This document shows positions 1 through 40,150 of a DNA stretch of 44,335 nucleotides, piece after piece. The first letter of the stretch is position 1, and each line of letters starts with the position of its first letter. A program made the position numbers and the translations under genes. This stretch comes from Siminovitchia terrae. GTDB taxonomy: Bacteria > Bacillota > Bacilli > Bacillales > Bacillaceae_C. A model generated the notes under the pieces. It searched no databases. It worked only from the letters and a program-made list of their open reading frames with translations, and was not told where the DNA came from. The DNA lies in the NCBI RefSeq assembly GCF_003605405.2, contig NZ_QYTW02000005.1, forward strand, positions 164,404 through 208,738, read 5' to 3'.

Positions 1-125
1 GTGGGGATTCAGACGCCGGCTGAATAAAGTTAAAGCCTCCGGCGGATGCCACAGATTTTCAGAGGAAATTTATCGATCGGAGCTCGATAAAATCTGGGCA
101 CAAATACGCCAAGGCGCATTTGATA
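1..125 (+). repeat. Interspersed structured repeat, copy A (cut by window edge)
   Basis: This is the right-hand part of a repeat that recurs four more times in this window, always in this orientation. Visible here are the 3' arm CTGAATAAAGTTAAA (20-34), the GC-rich CCTCCGGCGG block, the hairpin TTTATCGA / TCGATAAA, and the terminal block rich in GCGC that ends in GCATTTGAT. The left part lies outside the window. It sits just upstream of the MoxR gene. Seen directly by comparison with the other copies. Confidence 0.9.
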
Positions 126-4562: not shown

Positions 4563-4797
4563 TGCAAAGTAATGTTGCGCTTCGGACAGTATCTTTGTAA
4601 TCCGGACAGTAATGCTGAATTACGGACAGTATCTTCGTATTTTAAGCAGTAACGCTGAACATTGGACAGTATCTTTGTATTCTGGCCAGTAAAGCAGAAT
4701 TACGGACAGTATCTTCGTAATCTGGACAGTAATGCTGAACTCCGGACAGTATCTTTGTATTTTGGACAGTAAAGCCGAACATCGGACAGTACTGTCA
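4563..4797. repeat. Array of alternating 20-bp tandem repeats
   Basis: Twelve 20-base units run head to tail in exact register. Two types alternate: type A like CGGACAGTATCTTTGTAATC (from 4583) and type B like CGGACAGTAATGCTGAATTA (from 4603), so the higher-order unit is 40 bp, repeated about 5.5 times with a degenerate first and partial last unit. Differences are scattered point changes. Because 40 is not a multiple of three the array is not a coding repeat. It lies between yebA and the pbuG promoter. Function unknown. Confidence 0.95.
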
Positions 4798-4938
4798 TAT
4801 TCAATATAGTTTGAACGAAAAATCTTTGATTGATTACGTAACTGAATCTAATCTTGTGTAGCAGTTCCATGAGGAACTTTAATTTTACTTATATAGATGA
4901 GAAGAAACCGCAAAGCATCTTGCTTCAGTGATAAAATA

Positions 4939-4967: not shown

Positions 4968-4993
4968 AAAGTAAACAGAATTTTGTCGTATTA

Positions 4994-5064
4994 TATCGTA
5001 TAATCGCGGGAATATGGCCCGCAAGTTTCTACCAGGCTGCCGTAAATAGCTTGACTACGAGATA
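4994..5064 (+). promoter_or_regulatory. Purine riboswitch, guanine class
   Basis: The aptamer has P1 arms TATCGTA / TACGA, P2 GCGGG / CCCGC (5006-5010 and 5018-5022) closed by loop AATATGG, the invariant core GTTTCTACC, and P3 GGCT / AGCT around loop GCCGTAAAT. These loops match the two kissing loops of the purine family. The specificity base in the 3' segment TTGACTACGA is a C, as in the B. subtilis xpt guanine aptamer, and not the U of adenine aptamers. It precedes pbuG and a terminator, so guanine or hypoxanthine should end transcription early. Confidence 0.95.
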
Positions 5065-5124
5065 AAGTTGGGGATTTTCCTTCATTGTCATATAATCCCT
5101 TATTATTGTAGATCAATCTCAGTC

Positions 5125-5301: not shown

Positions 5302-6636
5302 TTGAAGAATTATTTTAGGTTTGATGATTTAGGTACAAATTACCGCAGGGAGACGATTGGCGGAATCACAACGTTCTTATCCATGGCTTATATCCTGATT
5401 TTGAATCCAATCACACTATCCCTTGAAACCGTAAAAGATCTTCCAGATGCTCTGAGGATGGACCATGGGGCAGTTTTCGTCGCAACTGCTTTGGCTGCTG
5501 CCCTTGGTACACTTCTGATGGGCCTTATTGCAAGGTATCCGATTGCTCTTGCTCCGGGAATGGGATTAAATGCGTTCTTTGCTTATACTGTAATTTTAAC
5601 AATGGGAATCCCATGGCAAACGGCTTTAACCGGCGTACTATTTTCAGGAATCATATTTATATGTTTAACACTAACTGGTATCCGGGAAATGCTAATTAAC
5701 TCGATTCCACCTGAATTAAAGATCGCAGTCGGCTCCGGAATCGGATTGTTCATCACCTTTGTCGGACTGCAAAATGCAGGCCTGATTGTGAATGATGATG
5801 CCGTTCTTGTCGGTCTTGGAAACTTGAGAGACGGAAATGTCATCTTGGCGATTGTTGGAATTGCTATTACGGTGATTTTAATGACACGTGGTGTCAAAGG
5901 CGGGATTTTCTTCGGGATTTTAATTACCGGAATCATCGGTATGATAGCAGGTGTTGTTCCTAAGCCGGATGCAATTGTTGGTTCCGTACCAAGCATTGCT
6001 CCTACATTCGGGGTCGCATTGGAACCAATTTTTAACACGCCGGGCGAGGTATTTACACTTCAAATGCTTGTTGTTGTATTGACCTTCTTATTTGTTGATT
6101 TCTTTGATACAGCAGGTACACTTGTAGCTGTTGCGCAGCAGGCTGGATTGATGAAAGGCAATACGCTTCCGCGTGCTGGCAAGGCTCTATTGGCTGACTC
6201 TACAGCGACTGTGGCAGGTGCCATTTTGGGAACCTCCACGACAACCTCTTATGTTGAATCAACGGCTGGAGTGGCTGCAGGTGCAAGGACAGGCTTTGCT
6301 AATATCGTTACAGCGATTTTATTCTTGCTATCCCTGTTTTTCTACCCATTGTTGGGTGTTATCACTGCATCTGTCACTGCACCGGCGCTGATCATCGTCG
6401 GAGTATTGATGGTGTCCGGAATTGGTGGAATTGATTGGAAGAGATTTGAAATTGCTGTTCCGGCATTTTTTACAATTGTTTCCATGCCATTGACGTATTC
6501 CATTGCTACCGGTATCGGAATAGGCTTCATCTTTTATCCAATTACAATGATCGTTAAAGGAAAAGCGAAAGAAATTCACCCAATTATGTATTTCTTTTTC
6601 GTGATCTTCGTTCTTTACTTCATATTTATAAAATAA
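5302..6636 (+). CDS. pbuG: Hypoxanthine/guanine permease (PbuG-like, NCS2/AzgA family)
   Basis: A 444-residue polytopic membrane protein of the AzgA-like branch of the NCS2 purine transporters, importing hypoxanthine or guanine by proton symport. Typical features are the N-terminal TIGGITTFLSMAYILILNP, the ALAPGMGLNAFFAYT segment around residues 80-95, and the FVDFFDTAGTL motif near residue 265, followed by GTSTTTSYVESTAGVAAGAR. Hydrophobic segments run along its whole length. Translation starts at TTG after a strong GGAGGAAGA site. A guanine riboswitch and terminator in the leader show that it is repressed when guanine is plentiful. It lies next to guaA, as in related genomes. Confidence 0.95.
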   Translation: MKNYFRFDDLGTNYRRETIGGITTFLSMAYILILNPITLSLETVKDLPDALRMDHGAVFVATALAAALGTLLMGLIARYPIALAPGMGLNAFFAYTVILTMGIPWQTALTGVLFSGIIFICLTLTGIREMLINSIPPELKIAVGSGIGLFITFVGLQNAGLIVNDDAVLVGLGNLRDGNVILAIVGIAITVILMTRGVKGGIFFGILITGIIGMIAGVVPKPDAIVGSVPSIAPTFGVALEPIFNTPGEVFTLQMLVVVLTFLFVDFFDTAGTLVAVAQQAGLMKGNTLPRAGKALLADSTATVAGAILGTSTTTSYVESTAGVAAGARTGFANIVTAILFLLSLFFYPLLGVITASVTAPALIIVGVLMVSGIGGIDWKRFEIAVPAFFTIVSMPLTYSIATGIGIGFIFYPITMIVKGKAKEIHPIMYFFFVIFVLYFIFIK

Positions 6637-26154: not shown

Positions 26155-26736
26155 ATGAGAAAAATTTTTTATAGCATTTTCATTATTTTTGTATTAAGTG
26201 CATGTTCCCAGGAAGAAAATATTGACGCTACAGAGGATGAGACTCCTCTTACAACGAACATAGAAATCCCTAGTGCTATTTTCACCTCTGAAAAAAACAA
26301 TAGTACAATTGACGAAGAGGAAATGAAGTTAAGCATAAAAACATATTTAGACAGTAGCGAAGAATTAGATAATGCTATTTATCCATTTGAAGAGATTATC
26401 GATGAAGATGAGGAACTAAATGAAAGTGAATTAGAGAAATTTAACAGAATTAATAAGCTTGTAAAAGAGAATGATGAGAATTTCTCTAATTATATTTTGA
26501 ACAATACCTTGCCTGAAGGCTATCAAGAAGAGTCAGAGAGAATTAGTCGTTACATTACAGCTTCAAATGAGTATATTCAAGAATTAAATGAAATGCTTGA
26601 AGGAAACTTTTCTGAAATAGACATTGAATCATTCATTGATAAAAGCGGTGTGGTCAATGGAAAAGAACAGAAAAAAATAGAAGAATTCCTTGATAAGAAG
26701 AAGATTCACACCAAAGCATTTGGACGGGAATATTAA
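26155..26736 (+). CDS. NDxxF-motif lipoprotein
   Basis: A 193-residue acidic lipoprotein. The signal peptide MRKIFYSIFIIFVLSAC ends in a lipobox with Cys17 for lipidation. The motif NDENF inside KENDENFSNYILNNTLPEGY marks the NDxxF lipoprotein family of Bacillales and Staphylococcus, function unknown. The mature part is mostly helical and rich in Glu. The ATG at 26155 follows GGGGGAGAAA; an upstream in-frame start at 26119 would spoil the signal peptide. A strong terminator follows, so it is probably monocistronic. Confidence 0.85.
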   Translation: MRKIFYSIFIIFVLSACSQEENIDATEDETPLTTNIEIPSAIFTSEKNNSTIDEEEMKLSIKTYLDSSEELDNAIYPFEEIIDEDEELNESELEKFNRINKLVKENDENFSNYILNNTLPEGYQEESERISRYITASNEYIQELNEMLEGNFSEIDIESFIDKSGVVNGKEQKKIEEFLDKKKIHTKAFGREY

Positions 26737-26783
26737 AGACATAAAGGAAAGGTTAATCCATTGAACTGTACAAGACGCATTCC

Positions 26784-26819
26784 AAAAGGTGCCCTGATTT
26801 AAATAGGGGGCACCTTTTT
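26784..26819 (+). terminator. Intrinsic terminator after the lipoprotein gene
   Basis: AAAAGGTGCCC / GGGCACCTTTTT perfect stem with T tail. Confidence 0.9.
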
Positions 26820-26830
26820 GAATAATGACT

Positions 26831-27026
26831 TTTAACTTCATTCAGCAGAAGTCTCCCACTTCTTTAAGTGGTGAGATGAATGCATATTGGCATTCCATTC
26901 AGTGGGGGGTCAAACCCCGGCTGAATAAAGTTAAAGCCTCCGGCGGTTGCCACAGATTTTCAGAGGAAATTTATCGAGCGGAGCTCGATAAAATCTGGGC
27001 GCAAATACGCTAAGGCGCATTTGATT
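26831..27026 (+). repeat. Interspersed structured repeat, copy B (most complete)
   Basis: The reference copy, 196 bases. From left to right: closing arm TTTAACTTCATTCAG; hairpin CTCCCACTT / AAGTGGTGAG; hairpin GAATGC / GCATTC with loop ATATTG; hairpin ATTCAG-GGGG / CCCC-CTGAAT; closing arm CTGAATAAAGTTAAA; GC-rich CCTCCGGCGG; hairpin TTTATCGA / TCGATAAA inside CAGATTTT / AAAATCTG; and a GCGC-rich end. The closing arms share six bases with the third hairpin, so two folds are possible. It lies between a terminator and the GntR gene. Confidence 0.93.
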
Positions 27027-27221
27027 ATTTATAATGGTAACAGTAACCTAATAACCTTAGTAACATAGGGGTTTTAGGACTTTATTATTGATTGTGGCAC
27101 ATCATATTAAGTTTTCCAAAAGAAGGTTTCTGAATAGAACATAATGACCTCGCTTCTATTTCTAAAAAGACATGAAGAAAATAGCTTATCTTGATGAGAT
27201 TATTCAAGCTTTTCTATACTG

Positions 27222-27240
27222 TGTATAATAGAGATATACA
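27222..27240 (+). promoter_or_regulatory. Candidate GntR (YtrA-type) operator 1
   Basis: TGTATA-ATAGAGA-TATACA is an inverted repeat 23 bases before the GntR start, in the promoter position. The core GTATA/TATAC recurs in the larger dyad at 28723. Confidence 0.5.
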
Positions 27241-27262
27241 ATGATAAAAAAGAGGTATCGGC

Positions 27263-27634
27263 ATGCAAATTATTATATCAAACAGTTCGAAAGAGCCAAT
27301 TTATGAGCAGATTGTAAAGCAAATTCAAACGTCAATATTGTCAGGAGAACTGGAGGAAGGAACCACATTGCCTTCCATGAGACAGCTGGCTAAGGATTTA
27401 AAAATAAGTGTAATCACTACAAAACGGGCATATGAAGAATTGGAGAAATCAGGATTTATCTATTCGATTGTTGGGAAAGGTTCGTTTGTAGCAGAACAAA
27501 ATTTAGATGTAATTCGTGAGAAAAAGTTAAGGGTAATTGAAGAGCAATTAAGTGCGGTTATCTTCAATAGTCGAGAAATTGGACTATCTTATGGAGAACT
27601 GCAGGAATTGTTAAAGTTGTTGTACGAGGAGTGA
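27263..27634 (+). CDS. GntR-family regulator, YtrA subfamily
   Basis: A 123-residue repressor, short as expected for the YtrA subfamily, which has the winged-helix domain plus a two-helix dimerisation tail and no large effector domain. The DNA-binding part shows PIYEQIVKQIQTSILSGELE, LPSMRQLAKDLKISVITTKR and FIYSIVGKGSFVAE. YtrA-type regulators control ABC transporter operons, and the next gene five bases on is an ABC ATPase. Inverted repeats at 27222 and 28723 are candidate operators. The start follows AAGAGGT. Confidence 0.92.
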   Translation: MQIIISNSSKEPIYEQIVKQIQTSILSGELEEGTTLPSMRQLAKDLKISVITTKRAYEELEKSGFIYSIVGKGSFVAEQNLDVIREKKLRVIEEQLSAVIFNSREIGLSYGELQELLKLLYEE

Positions 27635-27639
27635 TCTGG

Positions 27640-28500
27640 ATGGAAAATGTGATAGAATTCCGTGGCGTTTCTAAAGCGTTTAAGGCATTCTCTATAGAAA
27701 ATCTTGATTTACAGATAAAACAAGGGTATGTAACAGGATTTATTGGAGCGAATGGAGCGGGAAAATCGACCATAATAAAGCTGATAATGAATCTTTTACA
27801 GCCAGATAAAGGGGAAGTGAACGTATTTGGACTAGACTATGCGAGTTATGCGAAAGAAATAAAAGAACGCATCGGCTTTGTTTACGATAGCAATATATTT
27901 TATGAATCATTGAACCTGAAGGATATTACCAGAATCGTTGGACCAGCTTATCAACGATGGAATAATAATCAATTCAAAGCTTATATTGATCAATTTGAAT
28001 TACCTATGAATAAACCGATTAAAAAATTTTCTAAAGGCATGCAGATGAAGGCATCTTTAGCGATTGCTTTATCCCATGATGCGGAATTAATCATAATGGA
28101 TGAGCCAACAGCTGGATTAGACCCGACTTTTCGCAGAGAGTTATTAGACATTTGTCAAGAAGAGATGGTAGATGAAAAAAGGAGTATTTTCTTTTCGACG
28201 CATATTACAAGCGACTTGGATCGTTTTGCGGATTACATTGTACTGGTTGATAAAGGGGAAGTTCTCTTTAATCAGTCTATTGACGAACTGCAGGATCAGT
28301 ATGCGTTGGTGAAAGGCAGTATCGATTTGCTTGATCGAGATACTGAAGCGAATTTTATTAAAATAGATCGATCCCAAAGCGGATTTCAAGCTTTAACAAA
28401 TGATGTAAAAAAAGTAAAAGAAATCTTCAGTAATCATGTTGTGATTGAGAAGGCTTCTTTAGAAGAAATTATGTTTTATGTGAAAGGAGCACGCAAGTAA
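27640..28500 (+). CDS. ABC transporter ATP-binding protein (YtrB-like), copy 1
   Basis: A 286-residue ABC-2-type ATPase. Walker A GANGAGKST (about residues 38-46), signature FSKGMQM, Walker B LIIMDEPTAGLDP and switch His in FFSTHI are all present, so it should be active. The C-terminal 70 residues form the extra domain seen in YtrB-like and related ATPases. The ATG at 27640 follows GAGGAG, which overlaps the GntR stop. It is a close paralogue of the ATPase at 29073 but has no permease gene behind it; a terminator comes 115 bases later. It may share the single permease of the second unit, or its own permease may have been lost. Confidence 0.92.
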   Translation: MENVIEFRGVSKAFKAFSIENLDLQIKQGYVTGFIGANGAGKSTIIKLIMNLLQPDKGEVNVFGLDYASYAKEIKERIGFVYDSNIFYESLNLKDITRIVGPAYQRWNNNQFKAYIDQFELPMNKPIKKFSKGMQMKASLAIALSHDAELIIMDEPTAGLDPTFRRELLDICQEEMVDEKRSIFFSTHITSDLDRFADYIVLVDKGEVLFNQSIDELQDQYALVKGSIDLLDRDTEANFIKIDRSQSGFQALTNDVKKVKEIFSNHVVIEKASLEEIMFYVKGARK

Positions 28501-29016: not shown

Positions 29017-29072
29017 GAGCTGATCTGTAGCGAAACAAATTACTGAAAATTTATTATGTGAGGAATGGTAGT

Positions 29073-29942
29073 ATGGAAAATATAGTGGAGTTCAAAGGTG
29101 TAACGAAGCGTTTTAAAGGTTTTTCCTTAGAAAATATCAATCTACAAATTAAGCAAGGCTATGTGACTGGGTTTATTGGGGCAAATGGAGCGGGAAAATC
29201 GACAACAATGAAGTTAATGATGAATCTTTTACAAGCAGATGCAGGTGAAATAAAAGTATTTGGATTAGATTATGCGAGCCATGAGAAAGAGATTAAGGAG
29301 CGCATAGGGTTTGTCTACGATAGTAATGTGTTTTATGAAGGTTTAAACATAAAAGATATTCGCCAAATTGTAGCACCTAGTTATAAAAATTGGAGTGACG
29401 AGCAATTTTATGATTATATCAAGAAGTTTGAACTGCCATTAAATAAAGCAGTTAAAACGTTTTCGAAAGGGATGCAGATGAAAGTTTCTTTAGCAATGGC
29501 TTTATCTCATGATGCCGAATTCATTATGATGGATGAGCCGACAGCCGGATTAGATCCAGTTTTCCGGAGAGAGCTGTTAGATATTTTAAAAGATATTATG
29601 GAGGGTGGAAAGAGAACACTTTTCTTTTCCACACATATAACTAGTGATTTAAATCATATTGCTAATTATATTACGTTCATTCAAAAGGGGAAAATTCTTT
29701 TCAATGATTCTATGGATGAAGTGCAGGAGCGGTATGCTTTAGTCAAGGGAAGTACTGATTTAATCAATCGTGATACAGAAAAAAGTTTTATAAAGGTAGA
29801 GCATTCTTCTACTGGATTTCAAGCTCTGACAGATGATGTAAAGAGAGTGAAGGAGCTATTTGGAGACCGTGTCGTTATTGAAGAAGCTACCTTGGAAGAT
29901 ATTATGTTTTATGTGAAAGGAGCGAGTCATCAACATGTTTAA
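29073..29942 (+). CDS. ABC transporter ATP-binding protein (YtrB-like), copy 2
   Basis: A 289-residue paralogue of the ATPase at 27640, sharing most residues across the whole length, with Walker A GANGAGKST, signature FSKGMQM, Walker B FIMMDEPTAGLDP and switch His FFSTHI. The start follows GTGAGGA. It overlaps the permease gene by eight bases, so the pair should form one complex at the membrane. Export of a peptide antibiotic or membrane-active compound is typical for YtrA-controlled systems but unproven here. Confidence 0.93.
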   Translation: MENIVEFKGVTKRFKGFSLENINLQIKQGYVTGFIGANGAGKSTTMKLMMNLLQADAGEIKVFGLDYASHEKEIKERIGFVYDSNVFYEGLNIKDIRQIVAPSYKNWSDEQFYDYIKKFELPLNKAVKTFSKGMQMKVSLAMALSHDAEFIMMDEPTAGLDPVFRRELLDILKDIMEGGKRTLFFSTHITSDLNHIANYITFIQKGKILFNDSMDEVQERYALVKGSTDLINRDTEKSFIKVEHSSTGFQALTDDVKRVKELFGDRVVIEEATLEDIMFYVKGASHQHV

Positions 29943-30670: not shown

Positions 30671-30760
30671 CGTCATTATTGCCCTATAGCATTCCTGTAG
30701 ATCGTTAAATTTGGGCTTTGATAAAAATAGAGCTCCTCAGTAAGATGAGAGTAGATACCG

Positions 30761-30805
30761 AAAGAGTCTCAAATCCTTTGATATCAAGGACTTTGAGACT
30801 CTTTT
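30761..30805. terminator. Strong bidirectional terminator
   Basis: AAAGAGTCTCAAA / TTTGAGACTCTTTT with inner pairing TCCTT / AAGGA makes a long stem with A and T tracts on both sides. It serves the convergent ABC operon on the left and the two-component operon on the right. Confidence 0.9.
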
Positions 30806-30836
30806 GTAGTAGCGCGGTGACAGCCATTTATCTTAA

Positions 30837-31445
30837 TTACCTTTCTGTCATCCAGCCATTCTCTTTTGCTTTAGCAACCGCTTCAATTCGATTTTTTGCT
30901 TCTAATTTGCTAATAATTTCCGAAATATAATTGCGAATGGTTCCATCTGTTAAAAATAATTCTTGGGCAATTCCTTTTGAAGTTAATCCCTGTTCAATTA
31001 GTATTAGAATCTCCTGTTCACGCTGGGATAGAGGATTTCTTTGGCTGCTCATATATCCTGTAATTAAAGATGGTTCAAAATAAGTCTTTCCCTGAATGGC
31101 ATTTTTAATAAAAGCAATCAATTCATCGCTCGGGGTATCTTTTAACAAATAGGCTGACACTTTGGCATTCACTGCCCGTTCAAAATAACCATCACGAGCA
31201 AAAGTGGTTAAGATTATAACTTTTATTTCACTATCCGATAATTTTTCAGCAACTTCTAAACCTGATAAGTCAGGCATCTCGATATCTGTTAGGATAACAT
31301 CTGGTTTAAGCTTTTCAACGAGTTCCAAAGCCGTTTTTCCATTGTCTGCGGTGCCAACTACAGACAAGTCCTGATCAAGATTTAAGATTGTTGCCAACGC
31401 TGAAGACAGTAAGCCTTGATCTTCCGCAATCAAAATTTTAATCAT
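30837..31445 (-). CDS. NarL/LuxR-type response regulator (DesR/YvfU-like)
   Basis: A 202-residue response regulator. The receiver domain has the acidic pair near residues 8-9, phosphoacceptor Asp54 in LTDIEMP, Thr in ILTTFA and Lys in YLLKDTP. The C-terminal LuxR helix-turn-helix covers about residues 135-190 (NPLSQREQEILILIEQGLTS, GTIRNYISEIISKLEAKNR). The sequence closely follows B. subtilis DesR, but the neighbours are an ABC transporter and not a desaturase, which fits YvfU-type systems better. Its start overlaps the kinase stop by eight bases. Confidence 0.93.
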   Translation of the reverse strand: MIKILIAEDQGLLSSALATILNLDQDLSVVGTADNGKTALELVEKLKPDVILTDIEMPDLSGLEVAEKLSDSEIKVIILTTFARDGYFERAVNAKVSAYLLKDTPSDELIAFIKNAIQGKTYFEPSLITGYMSSQRNPLSQREQEILILIEQGLTSKGIAQELFLTDGTIRNYISEIISKLEAKNRIEAVAKAKENGWMTER

Positions 31446-32547
31446 GGTGATCCTCCTCTAGCGGAATCGTAATCGTCAAACACATCCCCTTGCGATCTGC
31501 AACCAATAAATGTCCATTGAGTTGTTCCACCCGTTCACGCATTCCAACTAACCCATTCCCAAATTTTAAGTCTTTTATTCCAATACCATTATCTTGAATC
31601 GAAAAAGTAAATACATCCTCTTTTAATAAAAAAGTTATTTTGCAATAGGTAGCTTGGCTATGACGGATAATATTGGTAATTGCTTCACGAAGACAATAGC
31701 TTACTTCATTTTGTAATCTTAATGGCACGCCTTGTACGACACTTTCATTCTCCGTAGTCAGGATGACTTTAGCAGCAGAAAGAACACGATTGATTTCTAC
31801 CAGTTCTTCCATTATTGTCTTTCGGCGCATATCAGAAACTATTTCCCTAACCATTGTCAAAGTTTCTCGAGATAGTTGTTGAACTTCATTGATTTCCTTC
31901 TTTGATACAGCAAGATCGTGATCAAATAGCTTTTGCGCTAAATCAAGTTTTATCGTCATAACAGATAGTGACTGTCCTAATGAATCATGCAATTCTCGGG
32001 CAATACGATTACGTTCTTTGCCGACAATCAAACTTTCCAGTCTTTCATTTGCTTGGTACATTTGTTTACGTTGTTCTTGCTGCTTTAAAAATTCACGTCC
32101 ACCAAAAGGGGCCAGTAGAGTGAATAAAGTAAAAGCTCCTGATGCAATCAAGTTTTCATTGTTAAATCTTAACCCTTTCATCCAAACAATAAGTGACCCT
32201 GTCATAATCAAGATAAGTAATGCACTATAAAACCAATTAAACCGTTTTGTCGTTAATTTAGAAAAACCGATTTGCCATGCCGGAAACATAAATAGATAAA
32301 CATAGCCTAAATGAACCAAATAAATAAAACTGATTAAATATTGAATACTGATCCAAAATGGATAATATTTTTCGGCAAAAAGACTATTGCGATAACAAAC
32401 TGCAAATATAATAATCAATCCTGTCATACATACCTTATCAAGAGAGTCATAAGGATACATACTAAACAACGGGATTAATAAAAAACATAACCAAATCAGT
32501 GGCGTAAAGCCCTGATCTTTTGGGAACAAAGTAAACTTTCTTATCAT
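31438..32547 (-). CDS. DesK/YvfT-like sensor histidine kinase
   Basis: A 369-residue HisKA_3 kinase. Four or five membrane helices fill the first 150 residues, followed by a coiled-coil linker, the phosphoacceptor His in NRIARELHDSLGQSLSVM (near residue 187), the N box LREAITNIIRHSQA and the G box DNGIGIKDLKFGNGLVGMRE. This architecture is that of DesK, which senses membrane thickness. Because it sits in an operon with an ABC exporter it more likely senses membrane damage or an antimicrobial compound; that is inference. It is cotranscribed with the response regulator. Confidence 0.93.
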   Translation of the reverse strand: MIRKFTLFPKDQGFTPLIWLCFLLIPLFSMYPYDSLDKVCMTGLIIIFAVCYRNSLFAEKYYPFWISIQYLISFIYLVHLGYVYLFMFPAWQIGFSKLTTKRFNWFYSALLILIMTGSLIVWMKGLRFNNENLIASGAFTLFTLLAPFGGREFLKQQEQRKQMYQANERLESLIVGKERNRIARELHDSLGQSLSVMTIKLDLAQKLFDHDLAVSKKEINEVQQLSRETLTMVREIVSDMRRKTIMEELVEINRVLSAAKVILTTENESVVQGVPLRLQNEVSYCLREAITNIIRHSQATYCKITFLLKEDVFTFSIQDNGIGIKDLKFGNGLVGMRERVEQLNGHLLVADRKGMCLTITIPLEEDHHD

Positions 32548-32588
32548 ATCAACTTATTCACACCTCTAAACTAACTGATCAAATATTC

Positions 32589-33368
32589 TTATATTCGCTT
32601 TTTATTAAAAGTCAAATAACCTAAGAACAGAAAAATTATAACATAGACACAGTTTCCAATAAGCAAAGAACTGGTCGTTAATTGAGTGAGGTCTCGCATC
32701 ATTTCGAAATTTGTGAGCTGATTATTGAGATTTAACATATTAAACGGATTCCATTTTAACCACGAATATTCCTTAAGTAGCGAGAATTGAATTCCGGCTA
32801 ACATTGAAGTTAGAAAATAAGCTACGACCCCAATTAGACTTGCAATCGCATCTTTTTTTACTAAACACGTAATCATAATCACGACGCTGATAAATAACCA
32901 AGAAGCGATGAAACTCCCAAGCGTGTTTAATATCATCATCTCAAACAAAGAATGTCCTTGTGTTATGGCACCATCAAAGTGGAATTCTGGAAATAAGATC
33001 ATCTTTAAGATCATCGTTGCAATGAAGGCCACTGCATGTAAAAAGAGTGAGTAGATTAATATAACGAAAGTTTTACTTGTCAGAATTTGTTTCCGAGTAT
33101 AGCCTTGCATCAAAATCGTTTTGATTGTACCATAACGAAACTCCATCGAAACTAACTGACTTGCAAAATAAACTAAGCAAAAAACAATTAAACCAGATAC
33201 ACCAAACAGTGCAGGAAGTATCTTTTCCAGTAATAAAATTTCTGTATCGCTATATTTGATAAATAAGCTTACAATGGTTGTGCTGATTATAATTAGTACT
33301 GTATGGATCAAAACGCTCTTTTGTTTGATTTGTTTAGATATCTCTTGTTTAATCAATTCTTTCATCAT
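32589..33368 (-). CDS. ABC-2-type permease subunit
   Basis: A 259-residue permease with six hydrophobic segments and the loop EFRYGTIKTILMQGYTRKQI that typifies ABC-2/BcrB-like permeases. The start at 33368 follows AAGAAGGG. It is 14 bases downstream of its ATPase and followed by the kinase gene. Confidence 0.9.
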   Translation of the reverse strand: MMKELIKQEISKQIKQKSVLIHTVLIIISTTIVSLFIKYSDTEILLLEKILPALFGVSGLIVFCLVYFASQLVSMEFRYGTIKTILMQGYTRKQILTSKTFVILIYSLFLHAVAFIATMILKMILFPEFHFDGAITQGHSLFEMMILNTLGSFIASWLFISVVIMITCLVKKDAIASLIGVVAYFLTSMLAGIQFSLLKEYSWLKWNPFNMLNLNNQLTNFEMMRDLTQLTTSSLLIGNCVYVIIFLFLGYLTFNKKRI

Positions 33369-33382
33369 GAATCTTTCCCTTC

Positions 33383-34048
33383 TTATGCCCAATAACTTAA
33401 TAATAAATCTTCAAATTCTTCGTTATTTACTTCATTCATTTGAATATCTTGTTCAATCGTTCCATTTTTTAATAAAAGTGTACGATGAATAATTTTCTTT
33501 AATTCACTCAGAATATGGCTTGAGATTAAAAAAGTCGTACCCTCTTTCGCATAAGTAAGGATTGTTTCTCGCAAAAGCTTATTTGCACGGGGATCGAGTC
33601 CGTTCATCGGTTCATCCAAAATAACTAGTTGCGGATTATTGAGCAGTGCCATCCCAACCCCTAAGCGCTGCTTCATTCCTAAAGAATAATCCTTAATTTT
33701 TAGATTGATAAATTCATTTAAGTCTAAACGATGTACTACTTTTTGAATTTCCTGTTCAGTACTATGTATCGCTAAAAAAAGTTCCAAGTGCTCATATCCG
33801 GTTAAGAACGGGTAGAGTCCTGGATGTTCGATCAAAGCTCCAACATTTTTAATGTCAGTTTGAAAAGTAATCCTTCCGGAGTTTAGTGGAATAAATTTTA
33901 AAATAGCTTTCATCAGAGTTGTTTTCCCTGCACCATTTGAACCTACTAAGCCAACGATTTCTCCTTGATTCAAAGAGAAGCTGACATTCTTTAAAACTTC
34001 TTTTTTATGATAGTTAACACCTAATTGATTAATTGATAATAATTTCAT
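33383..34048 (-). CDS. ABC transporter ATP-binding protein (BcrA/YvfR-like)
   Basis: A 221-residue ATPase: Walker A GSNGAGKTT (about residues 37-45), signature YSLGMKQRLGV, Walker B LVILDEPMNGLDP and switch His SSHILSE. The size and the GALIEHPGLYPFLTGYEHL segment place it among BcrA/lantibiotic-immunity-type ATPases. It heads a minus-strand operon ATPase-permease-kinase-regulator, the arrangement of B. subtilis yvfRSTU. The start follows AAAGAGGAAC. The complex probably pumps out a peptide antibiotic or membrane-active molecule. Confidence 0.92.
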   Translation of the reverse strand: MKLLSINQLGVNYHKKEVLKNVSFSLNQGEIVGLVGSNGAGKTTLMKAILKFIPLNSGRITFQTDIKNVGALIEHPGLYPFLTGYEHLELFLAIHSTEQEIQKVVHRLDLNEFINLKIKDYSLGMKQRLGVGMALLNNPQLVILDEPMNGLDPRANKLLRETILTYAKEGTTFLISSHILSELKKIIHRTLLLKNGTIEQDIQMNEVNNEEFEDLLLSYWA

Positions 34049-34129
34049 CTTCCGTTCCTCTTTTCACTTGATAAATCAAGTATAGGGATTTACTCAGGTC
34101 TTGATTAGACGTAAATGTAAGGAGTTCAT

Positions 34130-34143
34130 ATGACAAATGTCAT
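34130..34143. promoter_or_regulatory. Candidate response-regulator operator
   Basis: ATGACAAATGTCAT has 6-base palindromic arms and lies 82 bases ahead of the ABC ATPase start. It is a plausible site for the operon's own regulator. Confidence 0.4.
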
Positions 34144-34151
34144 TTTTTTTT

Positions 34152-34183
34152 CAAAAAAAACAGACAGCCGATACTGTCTGTTT
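34152..34183 (-). terminator. Minus-strand intrinsic terminator
   Basis: Read on the minus strand, AAACAGACAG / CTGTCTG with loop TATCGG is followed by eight T residues. It ends transcripts arriving from the MFS gene and insulates the ABC operon. Confidence 0.8.
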
Positions 34184-34389
34184 AATCCCGATTAATAGAT
34201 TGGATAGCCTGCTATCGAGGCAGTAATTCATAAACTTACATTTGAAAACAGCATGCTGATAAAAGCCTGCTGTTTAATGTTCTTGAGAGATATTTGGGGG
34301 CAATTACTAGTAATAGTCTCATCTGAATTTCATTCTACTGGCCGTATATTTGTGGTGCTGTAATATACATTTTCCTCATCCCATTATAG

Positions 34390-34461
34390 AATATCAAATG
34401 ATCCTCAACTTCCCCCGCTAATAAAAATGCATTTTTATTAGCAAAAACGCGGTTTGATATT
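34390..34461. repeat. Nested perfect palindromes
   Basis: A perfect 26-base palindrome (34417-34442, half GCTAATAAAAATG) lies between outer arms AATATCAAA (34390-34398) and TTTGATATT (34453-34461). No T tract follows, so it is not a normal terminator. The 530-base gene-free region around it otherwise contains nothing I recognise up to repeat copy D. Confidence 0.8.
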
Positions 34462-34527
34462 TTGGATGTCTAGTAGTCCTGGCACAAACAAACCATAGTT
34501 TTATGTTGGACTAGTGCGTAAAAAGTT

Positions 34528-34687
34528 TTTAACTTCATTCAGCAGAAGTCTCCCACTTCTGTAAGTGGGAGATGAATACATATTGGTATTCCATTCAGTG
34601 GGGGTTCAAACCCCGGCTGAATAAAGTTAAAGCCTCCGGCGGATGCCACAGATTTTCTGGGTGCAAATACGCCAAGGCGCATTTGAT
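34528..34687 (+). repeat. Interspersed structured repeat, copy D (internal deletion)
   Basis: Near-complete in its left part, with a perfect first hairpin TCTCCCACTT / AAGTGGGAGA and second hairpin GAATAC / GTATTC, where copy B has GAATGC / GCATTC. The TTTATCGA hairpin block (about 34 bases) is deleted between CACAGATTTTC and TGGGTGCAAATACG. It lies at the 3' side of the MFS gene. Confidence 0.92.
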
Positions 34688-34721
34688 AAAGGTGAATCAA
34701 AATTGTGCCAACTAAAAACTT

Positions 34722-35957
34722 TTATAGTGCCTCATCGTTTACATTTTCTACCCGTTTTTCAGCATGTCTTTTTCTGCTTGAAGGTAGAAATAAACTGAGA
34801 AATGCACAGATTAAAAATCCACTCAGACTAAACAAATAGGCGGCGCTAAATCCGCCAAAGTGGTCGATGATCCAACCAGAAAAACCAGGACCAATCATCT
34901 GGCCGATACCATAAAAGACAGAAATAAAACTAATGGCTAAAGCAACGTATTGTTGTTCCACAAGCTTGGCCACTTGCAGCTGGATTAAGACGAGTGTTCC
35001 GCCCAATGATGTGCCCCAAATAAATGAGGCTAATGTAAAATATAGCGGGGCAGTCTGGATGACCGGAATAAAACTTCCGAAAGCAGATAGTAACAAGACC
35101 GTGACTAATGCTTGTTTAATACCGAAATGATCTGCAATCCATCCCCACAGTGGCGGTCCGAATATAGAGACGAACCCAGCAAAAGAATATATTGAACCAG
35201 CGAGCGATTCTGTTTCACCTAGATCAATAAGATAGCTTGTCTGATAGAGGCTCGGAACCAAGTAAACTAAGCCAACAATAAAGTAAATGCTAGCGAGCAA
35301 ATAAAGTGGTTTTGAACGCCAGACTTTATTTGACGGTTCTTTAGAACCAAATGTTTTTTCTTTTGATGATAAGTCTTTTAGAAATAATAATGTCAATAAA
35401 AGTATCGCTAACGTTATGAGCGCAAAAATGAACCAGGCATAACGCCATGCCTCTCCTGAAAATACCTTAACAACGCTCGGAACAATTAAGCCGCTGAGAA
35501 GGATACCAATTCCTGCACCACTCATTAAAAAACCCATGACCATCCCGCGTTTATCCGGGAATGAAGTGACGACCAAAGACATGAGCGGAGTAAATACTAA
35601 TGCGCTCCCCAAACCTAATAAGAACACGCTGATTGCTGCGAATAAATAACTGTTGACGAACATTAAACAAAATAGCCCGATTAATACAGCGATGTTTCCA
35701 ATTACAACTGTATTCTTTGCACCAATCTTTCCAGTCATCACACCAGATGATCCTACCGTAACTAAATAACCCAGGAATAAATACGTGCCAAGCATGCCAG
35801 CTTCTGTCGTTGTCAAACCGAGGTCAGTTTGCATAAATGGTAGAATCACACCATAGGCCATTCGCCCAAAGCCTGTTGTTGTGATCAGTAATCCCATCCC
35901 AAGAAAAATAAATACATACAAATATTTTTTATCTGTTCGTGTTTGAGGATTATCCAC
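34722..35957 (-). CDS. MFS transporter (YbfB/YjiJ-like), linked to metallophore uptake genes
   Basis: A 411-residue transporter with 12 hydrophobic segments, beginning with GTG after AGAAGGTGTC. The N-terminal block TTGFGRMAYGVILPFMQTDL followed by GLTTTEAG resembles YbfB/YjiJ-type MFS proteins. It follows the ECF genes on the same strand after about 90 bases, so it is probably part of the Fur-controlled unit. By analogy with ybtX beside ybtPQ it could move a siderophore-like compound, but sequence alone does not show direction or substrate. Confidence 0.87.
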   Translation of the reverse strand: MDNPQTRTDKKYLYVFIFLGMGLLITTTGFGRMAYGVILPFMQTDLGLTTTEAGMLGTYLFLGYLVTVGSSGVMTGKIGAKNTVVIGNIAVLIGLFCLMFVNSYLFAAISVFLLGLGSALVFTPLMSLVVTSFPDKRGMVMGFLMSGAGIGILLSGLIVPSVVKVFSGEAWRYAWFIFALITLAILLLTLLFLKDLSSKEKTFGSKEPSNKVWRSKPLYLLASIYFIVGLVYLVPSLYQTSYLIDLGETESLAGSIYSFAGFVSIFGPPLWGWIADHFGIKQALVTVLLLSAFGSFIPVIQTAPLYFTLASFIWGTSLGGTLVLIQLQVAKLVEQQYVALAISFISVFYGIGQMIGPGFSGWIIDHFGGFSAAYLFSLSGFLICAFLSLFLPSSRKRHAEKRVENVNDEAL

Positions 35958-38960: not shown

Positions 38961-39152
38961 TTTAACTTCATTCAGCAGAAATCTCCCACTTCTATAAATG
39001 GTGAGATGAAAGCATATTGGTATTCCATTCAGTGGGGGTTCAAACCCCGACTGAATAAAGTCAAAGCCTCCGGCGGATGCCACAGATTTACAAAATTTAT
39101 CGAGCAGAGTTCGATAAAATCTGGGCGCAAATACGCCAAGGCGCATTTGATT
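38961..39152 (+). repeat. Interspersed structured repeat, copy E
   Basis: An almost full copy (192 bases) with both closing arms, the three hairpins and the TTTATCGA / TCGATAAA hairpin; a few bases are lost around CACAGATTTAC. It lies between the Fur box and the AraC gene, and its last 76 bases are open in the frame of that gene. Confidence 0.93.
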
Positions 39153-39169
39153 TAGAAAGGATGTTTCAC

Positions 39170-40150
39170 TTGAAGAATGATATTTTAAATCAGAGCTACG
39201 AAGCGCTCGAAAGTGTATACATTCAAAAGATACGCGATGTATGGTTAGGTGAAATATATGAATATTCACCTCGTTATGGTGAGGGAACGCTTGAACGTTA
39301 TATTTTAGAACCTGGAATTGAACTAGCGATATTCCGTCAATGCACGCATGAAAGACTAGCAGAATCATTGCCTTATCATCAAAAGAATATGATTGAAATT
39401 ACGTCACTTGCCAAAGGTGAGTTATATGTACGCTATGACCCAGCGGATGAATGGACGAAATGCGACAATCAGCAGCTCATTTATTTTAGTTGGTCAAAGC
39501 CACTTAAGTACTATGATTTTCGCTGCAAACAAGCAGACGGTATTGGACTGTATTTAAATATGGACTTGCTGACGAATGGAATTTCGGGCAGTCAAAGTTG
39601 GGTGCAGTTGTTGGAGCGGTTGTTTAAAACAAATGTGCGCGTCTATGCAAGAAAAAGCTCACCCATCCATCGTTCTATTACAACGCAGCTTATGGTGCCA
39701 TATGAGGAAAATGTGATGAATCATTTCCTATTGAAATCAAAAGCTTTGGAGTTTTTATCACATTGTGTGAACGATGAGTTGGGGGAGGAGATTACTTTTT
39801 GTCCTGATGCCCGCATACGCAAAGTGAAAGAAAAAATAGATGCATCCTATGATTCACCATTGCAAGTGAATCAATTGGCGAAAGAATTCAATATTCCACC
39901 AATGACGCTTCAAAAACAATTTAAACAAAGCTACGGTTGTACAGTTTACCGATATATTCAAAAAAGACGAATGGACGCTGCGATGAAAGCGTTACTCACA
40001 ACAGACCAAAGCATAACAGACATTTCAATCAAAGTTGGTTATGATAATCCAAGCAAGTTTGCAACGGTATTTAAAAAACAGTACGGTGAGACACCTCTTC
40101 ATTATCGAAGAAAGTATCGTTACCATTCTTTACATGATTTTACCCCTTAA
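39170..40150 (+). CDS. AraC-family regulator (YbtA/PchR-like)
   Basis: A 326-residue regulator with an N-terminal effector domain and a C-terminal double helix-turn-helix (about residues 225-320), whose second half reads SITDISIKVGYDNPSKFATV followed by FKKQYGETPLHYRRKY. This ending is typical of YbtA/PchR-type activators that sense a siderophore in the cytoplasm and switch on its uptake genes. The frame is open back to ATG 39077, inside repeat copy E, but no ribosome site fits there. I prefer TTG at 39170, nine bases after AAAGG; ATG at 39161 abuts the same site. It sits between the ECF operon and the heterodimeric ABC genes. Confidence 0.88.
   Translation: MKNDILNQSYEALESVYIQKIRDVWLGEIYEYSPRYGEGTLERYILEPGIELAIFRQCTHERLAESLPYHQKNMIEITSLAKGELYVRYDPADEWTKCDNQQLIYFSWSKPLKYYDFRCKQADGIGLYLNMDLLTNGISGSQSWVQLLERLFKTNVRVYARKSSPIHRSITTQLMVPYEENVMNHFLLKSKALEFLSHCVNDELGEEITFCPDARIRKVKEKIDASYDSPLQVNQLAKEFNIPPMTLQKQFKQSYGCTVYRYIQKRRMDAAMKALLTTDQSITDISIKVGYDNPSKFATVFKKQYGETPLHYRRKYRYHSLHDFTP

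Follow-up and report, generated by a model that had tools for sequence, protein, structure and literature searches.

A high-copy, gene-less repeat family of Siminovitchia terrae as probable non-autonomous mobile elements of the single-strand (IS200/IS605) type

The five related repeats in a 44,335-nucleotide stretch of Siminovitchia terrae DNA (positions 164404-208738 of contig C45 in a 5.30-Mb draft genome, hereafter the window) very probably belong to a family of non-autonomous mobile elements that carry no gene, occur in high copy number and are of the single-strand (IS200/IS605) type. All five lie on the plus strand and were found where the preliminary description had placed them. They are a small sample of a large family, since a 25-base core of the element occurs, with up to three mismatches, at 439 places in the S. 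terrae genome (250 forward and 189 reverse), while the reversed pattern used as control occurs at none. The element is about 190 bp long and has no gene inside. Counting every core match as a full copy, the family would account for up to about 1.6% of the 5.30-Mb genome. The 137 full-length copies of this genome show a median identity of 95.4% to their consensus (5-95% range 87.7-97.6%), and 81 whole or partial copies are located in C1:1-400000, C12:1-400000 and the window. The copies of the window and the parts of copy B are the following.

1-124, plus strand: copy A, right part only, truncated by the window start; ends in TTTGAT
26831-26835, plus strand: target TTTAA of copy B; host DNA, as shown by empty sites and tandem copies
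26836-27025, plus strand: copy B, complete element CTTCATT...CATTTGAT
26836-26846 (26831-26846 including the target), plus strand: 5' strand of the outer stem P1 of copy B; from the single-stranded DNA fold, covariation helix 1
26852-26876, plus strand: hairpin 1, the left-end hairpin AGAAGTCTCCC...GAGATGAAT, common with IS200/IS605 left ends
26878-26895, plus strand: hairpin 2, weak, varies between lineages
26897-26925, plus strand: hairpin 3 region with GGGG/CCCC core; its outer arm competes with P1
26920-26935, plus strand: 3' strand of P1, from the fold; the final TTAAA (26931-26935) could pair with the target TTTAA, a putative role
26953-26997, plus strand: right-half hairpin CAGATT...AATCTG with inner TTTATCGAGC/GCTCGATAAA; covariation helices 5 and 6, helix 5 with two-sided changes in 6 of 6 pairs
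27002-27023, plus strand: terminal right-end hairpin CAAATACGC..GGCGCATTTG; helix 7, from the fold, two-sided changes in 4 of 10 pairs
27020-27025, plus strand: right tip TTTGAT, exact in 126 of the 137 full copies of this genome
28836-29015, plus strand: copy C with target, divergent; G003 has a copy at the same place
34528-34687, plus strand: copy D with target; an internal deletion removes the inner hairpin of the right half
38961-39151, plus strand: copy E with target; G003 has a copy at the same place

Conservation among the copies has a sharp edge, beginning at TTTAAC and ending at TTTGAT; the flanking sequence is without structure on the 5' side (68 copies) and only leans towards A/T on the 3' side (66 copies). 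The TTTAA is exact in 113 of the 137 full copies and NTTAA is present in 125, with GTTAA and ATTAA in six copies each, which may be relaxed targets or later mutations. A perfect empty site was found by comparison with the same-genus genome G005: S. terrae reads GCCGTTTAA directly followed by CGAACATACG, and in G005 the same GCCGTTTAA is followed by CTTCATT...CATTTGAT and then by CGAGCATACG. At a second place the reverse-strand copy at C12:142919, which follows GCTTTAA, corresponds to an empty GCTCTAA followed by TAG in G003, with a mismatch in the target. Matches spanning the junction were obtained for 3 of 136 junctions in this genome and for 5 of 44 in relatives (three loci representing one place and two another); clean empty sites are limited to these two places, one of them with the target mismatch, and the remaining spanning matches align poorly at the junction. 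Moreover, contig C7 carries a tandem pair in which TTTAA is followed by two elements, the second CTTCATT standing directly after the TTTGAT of the first with no TTTAA between them. Such an arrangement would arise when a further copy inserts at a TTTAA that is already occupied. The empty sites and the tandem pair therefore define TTTAA as the site and CTTCATT...CATTTGAT as the element, which inserts directly 3' of TTTAA without target duplication. The preliminary description had counted TTTAA as part of the outer arm of the element and had named empty sites in relatives as a sign of mobility; the former is instead a pre-existing target, and the latter were indeed found at the two places described. 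For IS200/IS605 elements, passages of PMC7290912 likewise describe insertion 3' of a tetra- or pentanucleotide with no duplication.

The orientation of the copies follows the GC skew. By local skew the plus strand of the element is the G-rich strand in 77 of the 81 copies mentioned above, and the same count, 77 of 81, was obtained in 20 additional stretches, each judged by its own skew; these stretches were selected as containing listed copies, some of them on the minority strand, and the copy density there is not unbiased. Combined, 154 of 162 copies follow the skew (p 3.6e-36 if copies are independent). TTTAA is roughly equally frequent on either strand of C1 and C12, where most open reading frames (ORFs) lie on the G-rich strand. 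The ORF contexts of 80 copies (one copy without a left neighbour was dropped) did not differ from those of all intergenic gaps (p 0.70). When only copies with mechanically called ORFs of at least 100 aa on both sides were considered, which dropped 11 copies, 144 of 151 followed the skew, including all 17 copies that lie between two ORFs running against the leading direction. As these 17 still follow the skew, the orientation is not set by transcription; it is set by replication, the direction of which was inferred from GC skew. By established strand logic the G-rich strand is taken as the lagging-strand template. The lagging-strand template is also the strand used by IS200/IS605 elements according to passages of PMC5371812 and PMC6006769, and the first of these further states that the orientation of such elements recapitulates replication direction and that an orientation bias is known in other IS families too (PMC5371812). 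Taken together, the empty sites, the fixed target, the sharp ends, the tandem re-insertion and the replication-set orientation strongly support the MITE-like mobility that had been offered as one option at the outset.

In sequence, the left end of the element (its first about 50 bp) resembles the left ends of tnpA/tnpB elements of the IS200/IS605 family. For a divergent copy, the first about 50 bp were matched in a Fusobacterium plasmid (E 1e-3) by the left end of a tnpB element, directly after TTTAA and 53 bp before the tnpB start. Permissive left-end searches among plasmids returned 3 records (E up to 1) and 21 records (E up to 5), of which nine were examined by choice, so that the following counts are not a rate. 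In five of the nine, from Fusobacterium, B. methanolicus, Mycoplasmatota, Methanomethylovorans and Campylobacter, the match is followed, 34-102 bases on, by the start of a gene annotated as tnpA, tnpB or a transposase with a TnpB domain. The Paenibacillus larvae record has an unannotated frame there which by eye looks like a TnpB start, the Clostridiaceae record has what by eye is a TnpB-like remnant, the Geobacillus record has no annotated gene at the match and the Leptotrichia record has another gene. Several of these matches have E values of 0.1 to 4 and therefore carry weight solely because they stand before tnpA or tnpB. Y1_Tnp or TnpB domains were identified by Pfam in the three proteins tested. 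Within S. terrae itself the tnpB loci L005, L009, L011 and L015 likewise have a TTTAA followed by the left end C...AGAAGTCCC...GATGAAT, and L004 is preceded by TTTAT.

The right end is different. Its tip is TTTGAT, as against TTCAC or TTCAA in most elements delineated by eye; the TTTAA-type elements so delineated finish in TTCAC, and the right ends of L005 and L007 are different again. The letters of the tip recur, after an unrelated hairpin, at apparent right ends of IS200-type elements in this genome and two relatives. Among these IS200-type elements the left ends at L016, L153 and L155 are preceded by TTGAT, and the apparent right ends at L016, L154 and L157 finish in TTTTGAT. The proposal that the repeat descends from an IS200/IS605 right end thus held in part: a link to the family exists through the similarity of the left end, but no right end seen resembles that of the repeat beyond the tip TTTGAT. 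Known IS200/IS605 elements next to TTTAA, namely IS605/TnpB7 of Sulfolobus islandicus in passages of PMC11043419 and the tnpA element of the B. methanolicus plasmid pBM19 (L255), have TTTAA at the left end as the repeat does, and the left-end hairpin AGAAGTCTCCC..GGGAGATGAGT of L255 is like hairpin 1. The absence of target duplication and the strand bias, for which the family is known, are likewise seen in the repeat. In contrast to these elements, the repeat has no tnpA or tnpB, ends in TTTGAT instead of TTCAC and has a large two-part fold. In the archaeal IS605, the same passages describe TTTAA as both the insertion site and the TAM, together with UUCAC (PMC11043419).

The insertion pattern suggests that a Y1 protein acting in trans is the mover. 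In S. terrae four loci match Y1, namely one gene of IS200 type, one RAYT-like gene that is intact, one pseudogene and one fragment, and none of them lies between element ends. No tnpA was found between such ends among the 73 Y1 loci listed and compared, which comprise 4 from this genome, 9 from relatives and two sets of 30 listed loci with some overlap, many from genomes without the element, and most of which reach only about 1.5 kb to each side. No element ends split around a gene were seen in the S. terrae stretches covered, where the coordinates of the 30 partial HSPs, present besides 138 full ones, were inspected. Y1 matches are present in 17 of 20 carrier genomes and absent from G023, G156 and G276.

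Within the preferred reading of a non-autonomous single-strand element, one tentative possibility is an ends-only derivative (PATE) of a TTTAA-specific IS605 element that is mobilised by the TnpA of the latter. The left-end hairpin is similar and has TTTAA before it, and G093 and G317, which both carry the repeat (G093 its right part only), have TTTAA left ends followed by TnpA genes with 65-75% identity to the one of the B. methanolicus element. However, the right ends disagree (TTTGAT versus TTCAC). The four Y1 loci of S. terrae include no intact TnpA of the B. methanolicus type, the best similarities being 27.6% over 116 aa (L016) and 29.5% over 61 aa (L019). PATEs as described in passages of PMC7290912 share with the repeat that they are gene-less, have palindromic ends and are presumed to be moved in trans. 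Compared with that description the repeat differs in that it does not consist of the two ends of any autonomous element found, has a conserved right module of its own and occurs in several genera.

A further sub-case of the preferred reading, which we regard as improbable, would be a REPIN-like repeat whose mover is L018, the single RAYT-type Y1 gene of the genome. This intact gene (L018/L192, G000:C13:34510-35064) occurs once in S. terrae (G000) and is syntenic in G003 and G001, genomes with 439, 78 and 23 core matches respectively, and G002 and G004, with 0 core matches, have no Y1 match. On the other hand, G005 has nine core matches but only broken or partial Y1 matches in place of such a gene. 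Of the 397 genomes of the order, 235 have homologs at E 1e-5, among them 13 of the 17 strong carriers (copy B match at E 5.6e-20 or better, a cut of our own) and 222 of the 380 others (p 0.21); the strong carriers without one at that threshold are G040, G156, G276 and G412. The gene has no copy directly beside it; in G001 and G003 one stands at a distance of about 1 kb, and L018 of S. terrae has none near. With repeats that neither flank the gene nor co-occur tightly with it, a role of the RAYT gene as mobiliser is unsupported. REPINs, as presented in passages of PMC3116915 and PMC6006769, are high-copy, mostly intergenic and palindromic, and the host has a RAYT-like gene in both cases, but the repeat is much longer, uses a TTTAA target and is not tightly tied to the RAYT-like gene. 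The bcr1 repeats of the Bacillus cereus group, compared here by description only from passages of PMC6542083, resemble it in being short and high-copy with mobile character and a T-rich pentamer (TTTAT); unlike the repeat, bcr1 was reported there as specific to that group (PMC6542083).

The family extends over several genera. Among five genomes of the same genus the core occurs in G003 (78 places), G001 (23) and G005 (9), and G002 and G004 gave neither core nor Y1 matches. A 37-base pattern was found exactly, among named genome records, in Siminovitchia fordii, Bacillus norwichensis and a Bacillus sp. A BLAST search with copy B matched 27 of 397 genomes of the order (S. terrae included) in 12 of 136 genera, four of the 27 at E values near 1e-3 that are possibly due to chance. 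Copy B had no match among plasmids or phages; the divergent copy matched one plasmid with its left end only and no phage, the right half alone matched no plasmid, and the exact 22-base core is absent from the viral contigs of IMG/VR. In the openly accessible literature, no paper was recognised as describing these element ends. As a separate observation, G000:C1:261209-264017 is 99.5-99.9% identical to L027 of G001, other stretches seen to be shared by the two genomes being mostly about 85-97% identical and the nearby C1:245707-246426 98.8%; the first stretch could be read as a recent transfer or as a shared mobile stretch in both genomes.

As single-stranded DNA copy B folds with -48.0 kcal/mol, compared to -21.9 kcal/mol in shuffles (z -7.95). 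The fold consists of the outer stem TTTAACTT.ATTCAGC/GCTGAATAAAGTTAAA around three hairpins, followed by the two-part right hairpin and the terminal right hairpin. Among the 137 full-length copies of S. terrae no clear covariation was detected, with 7 two-sided cells over 15 helices versus about 4.8 from the summed shuffle means; hairpin 2 comes closest to a signal, but its 2 cells are also attained in 18 of 200 shuffles. In 129 of the 137 copies the variable pair of this hairpin is a G·T wobble, from which copies B (G-C) and D (A-T) each depart by a single base. The compensatory change that had been read from the five window copies therefore dissolves at hairpin 2 into two departures from a consensus wobble, and the GAG/CTC of hairpin 3, taken as a second paired change, comes from the divergent copy C. 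Between genera the picture is different. In 26 aligned copies two-sided changes affect 25 of 55 pairs and amount to 62 cells versus 19.8 in shuffles; none of 500 shuffles reached 62, and slid structures gave 17-27. The rows were hand-picked (3 window copies, 2 old same-genus copies and 21 from other genomes, omitting window copies A and D, L189 and partial or degenerate loci such as L178, L179 and L184-L188) and the structure was drawn on one row, so that the shuffle and slid controls lean somewhat towards structure. Covariation, put forward as the check on the fold, is thus seen across genera but not within the genome, and the cloverleaf-like structure is upheld by an energy far below that of shuffles and by these between-genus changes. 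Subterminal hairpins are present at both ends of the element and covary between genera.

An alternative fold composed of the left-end hairpin, the outer arm of hairpin 3 and the other right arm has two-sided changes in 20 of 49 pairs, similar overall to the 25 of 55 of the cloverleaf since most helices are common to both. Among the helices private to one fold, two-sided pairs number 3 in P1 and 4 in the terminal right hairpin, and 0, 1 and 1 in the competing arms. On these counts the element might switch between two folds. In G375 and G412 one of two copies examined in each has a short loop in place of the interior while P1 and the right module are kept. The sequence between the arms of P1 can thus change freely, which points to P1 and the right module as the required parts. 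The consensus of hairpin 3 (window 26897-26925 and other copies) contains GTGGGGGTTCAA, which resembles the right-end tip of IS605 (..GTGGGAG..TTCAA).

Strong folding and between-genus covariation would also be expected of a functional non-coding RNA family or an RNA control element such as an attenuator or a 3' UTR element, with the covariation reflecting RNA structure, and neither property separates RNA from single-stranded DNA. In addition, the region 26600-27300 around copy B has 8 promoter-like sites compared to 2.8 in shuffles, one of them just upstream of copy B on the plus strand (26798-26826), as well as one terminator-like stem on the minus strand. Nevertheless, we consider this reading very unlikely. 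The orientation ignores the flanking ORFs, even in the 17 of 17 copies between opposing ones, the contexts are those of all gaps, the 137 copies of S. terrae lack covariation and the outer stem takes in host target DNA. Moreover, the repeats match no Rfam family at the gathering score, the sole match in the window being a purine riboswitch elsewhere. The non-coding RNA option of the preliminary description is accordingly set aside. Least probable of all is a small element with an RNA intermediate that enters exposed single strands by group II intron-like reverse splicing: its structure, lack of duplication, guide-pairable target and insertion into the lagging-strand template would presumably look alike, but the left end is similar to IS200/IS605 DNA elements, no intron is matched in Rfam, and the element is small with a 5' end that is not intron-like.

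We therefore return to the non-autonomous single-strand element and propose the following course of events. The strand exposed at the replication fork would fold, and the outer stem P1 would extend past the element, its internal TTAAA pairing with the flanking TTTAA and thereby marking the left cut. The same TTAAA could pair with the right tip TTTGAT. A Y1 (HUH) transposase provided in trans would cut after TTTAA and after TTTGAT, and the excised single-strand circle would be inserted at another exposed TTTAA. The pairing of the TTAAA guide with TTTAA is suggested by the predicted fold. In the copies of S. terrae it scores the same as shuffles (130 of 200 reach it), and the five target-guide pairs show no two-sided change between genera. 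The guide GTTAAA and the right tip TTTGAT are paired in 98.0% of cells versus 97.6% in shuffles (reached by 3 of 200), an excess which is a weak sign in favour of guide pairing. A more far-reaching interpretation, which we regard as speculative, is that the repeat stands for a distinct, order-wide class of gene-less single-strand transposons in which the folded DNA picks the site, with P1 running into the target, an internal TTAAA guide that pairs with TTTAA and with the tip TTTGAT, an RNA-like multi-helix fold and a changeable interior. In this interpretation the mover may be a transposase of a still unrecognised sort, since some carriers have no detectable Y1 gene.

Several other features of the window were observed. 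Copy C is located between two ABC-transporter ATPase genes (27631-28500 and 29058-29942) whose DNA is 74% alike over 300 bases. The mechanically called start of an AraC-type regulator ORF (39077-40150) lies inside copy E, which runs to 39151, so that the true start is probably further in or is supplied by the repeat. Compared with window 30757-35777, the sister species lacks about 5 kb at G003:C49:8841-9289 (L123), and the short stretch that separates the matching sides contains a repeat copy; repeats may have mediated a deletion or replacement here. About 5.6 copies of a 40-bp unit with CGGACAGTATCTTTGTATTC half-units lie between two genes at 4568-4842, and the purine riboswitch aptamer (4976-5077, 87 bits) is located upstream of a Xan_ur_permease gene (5302-6636).

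The behaviour of the repeat is already known for elements of the IS200/IS605 kind; what is unusual is its multi-helix fold together with a right half for which no match beyond the tip was found. With 154 of 162 oriented copies, the family provides a clean natural record of insertion linked to replication direction. Given that the DNA fold covaries, the choice of targets by base pairing can be tested on short synthetic single strands, and the family calls for caution in general, as intergenic repeats that covary like RNA can be folded single-stranded DNA.
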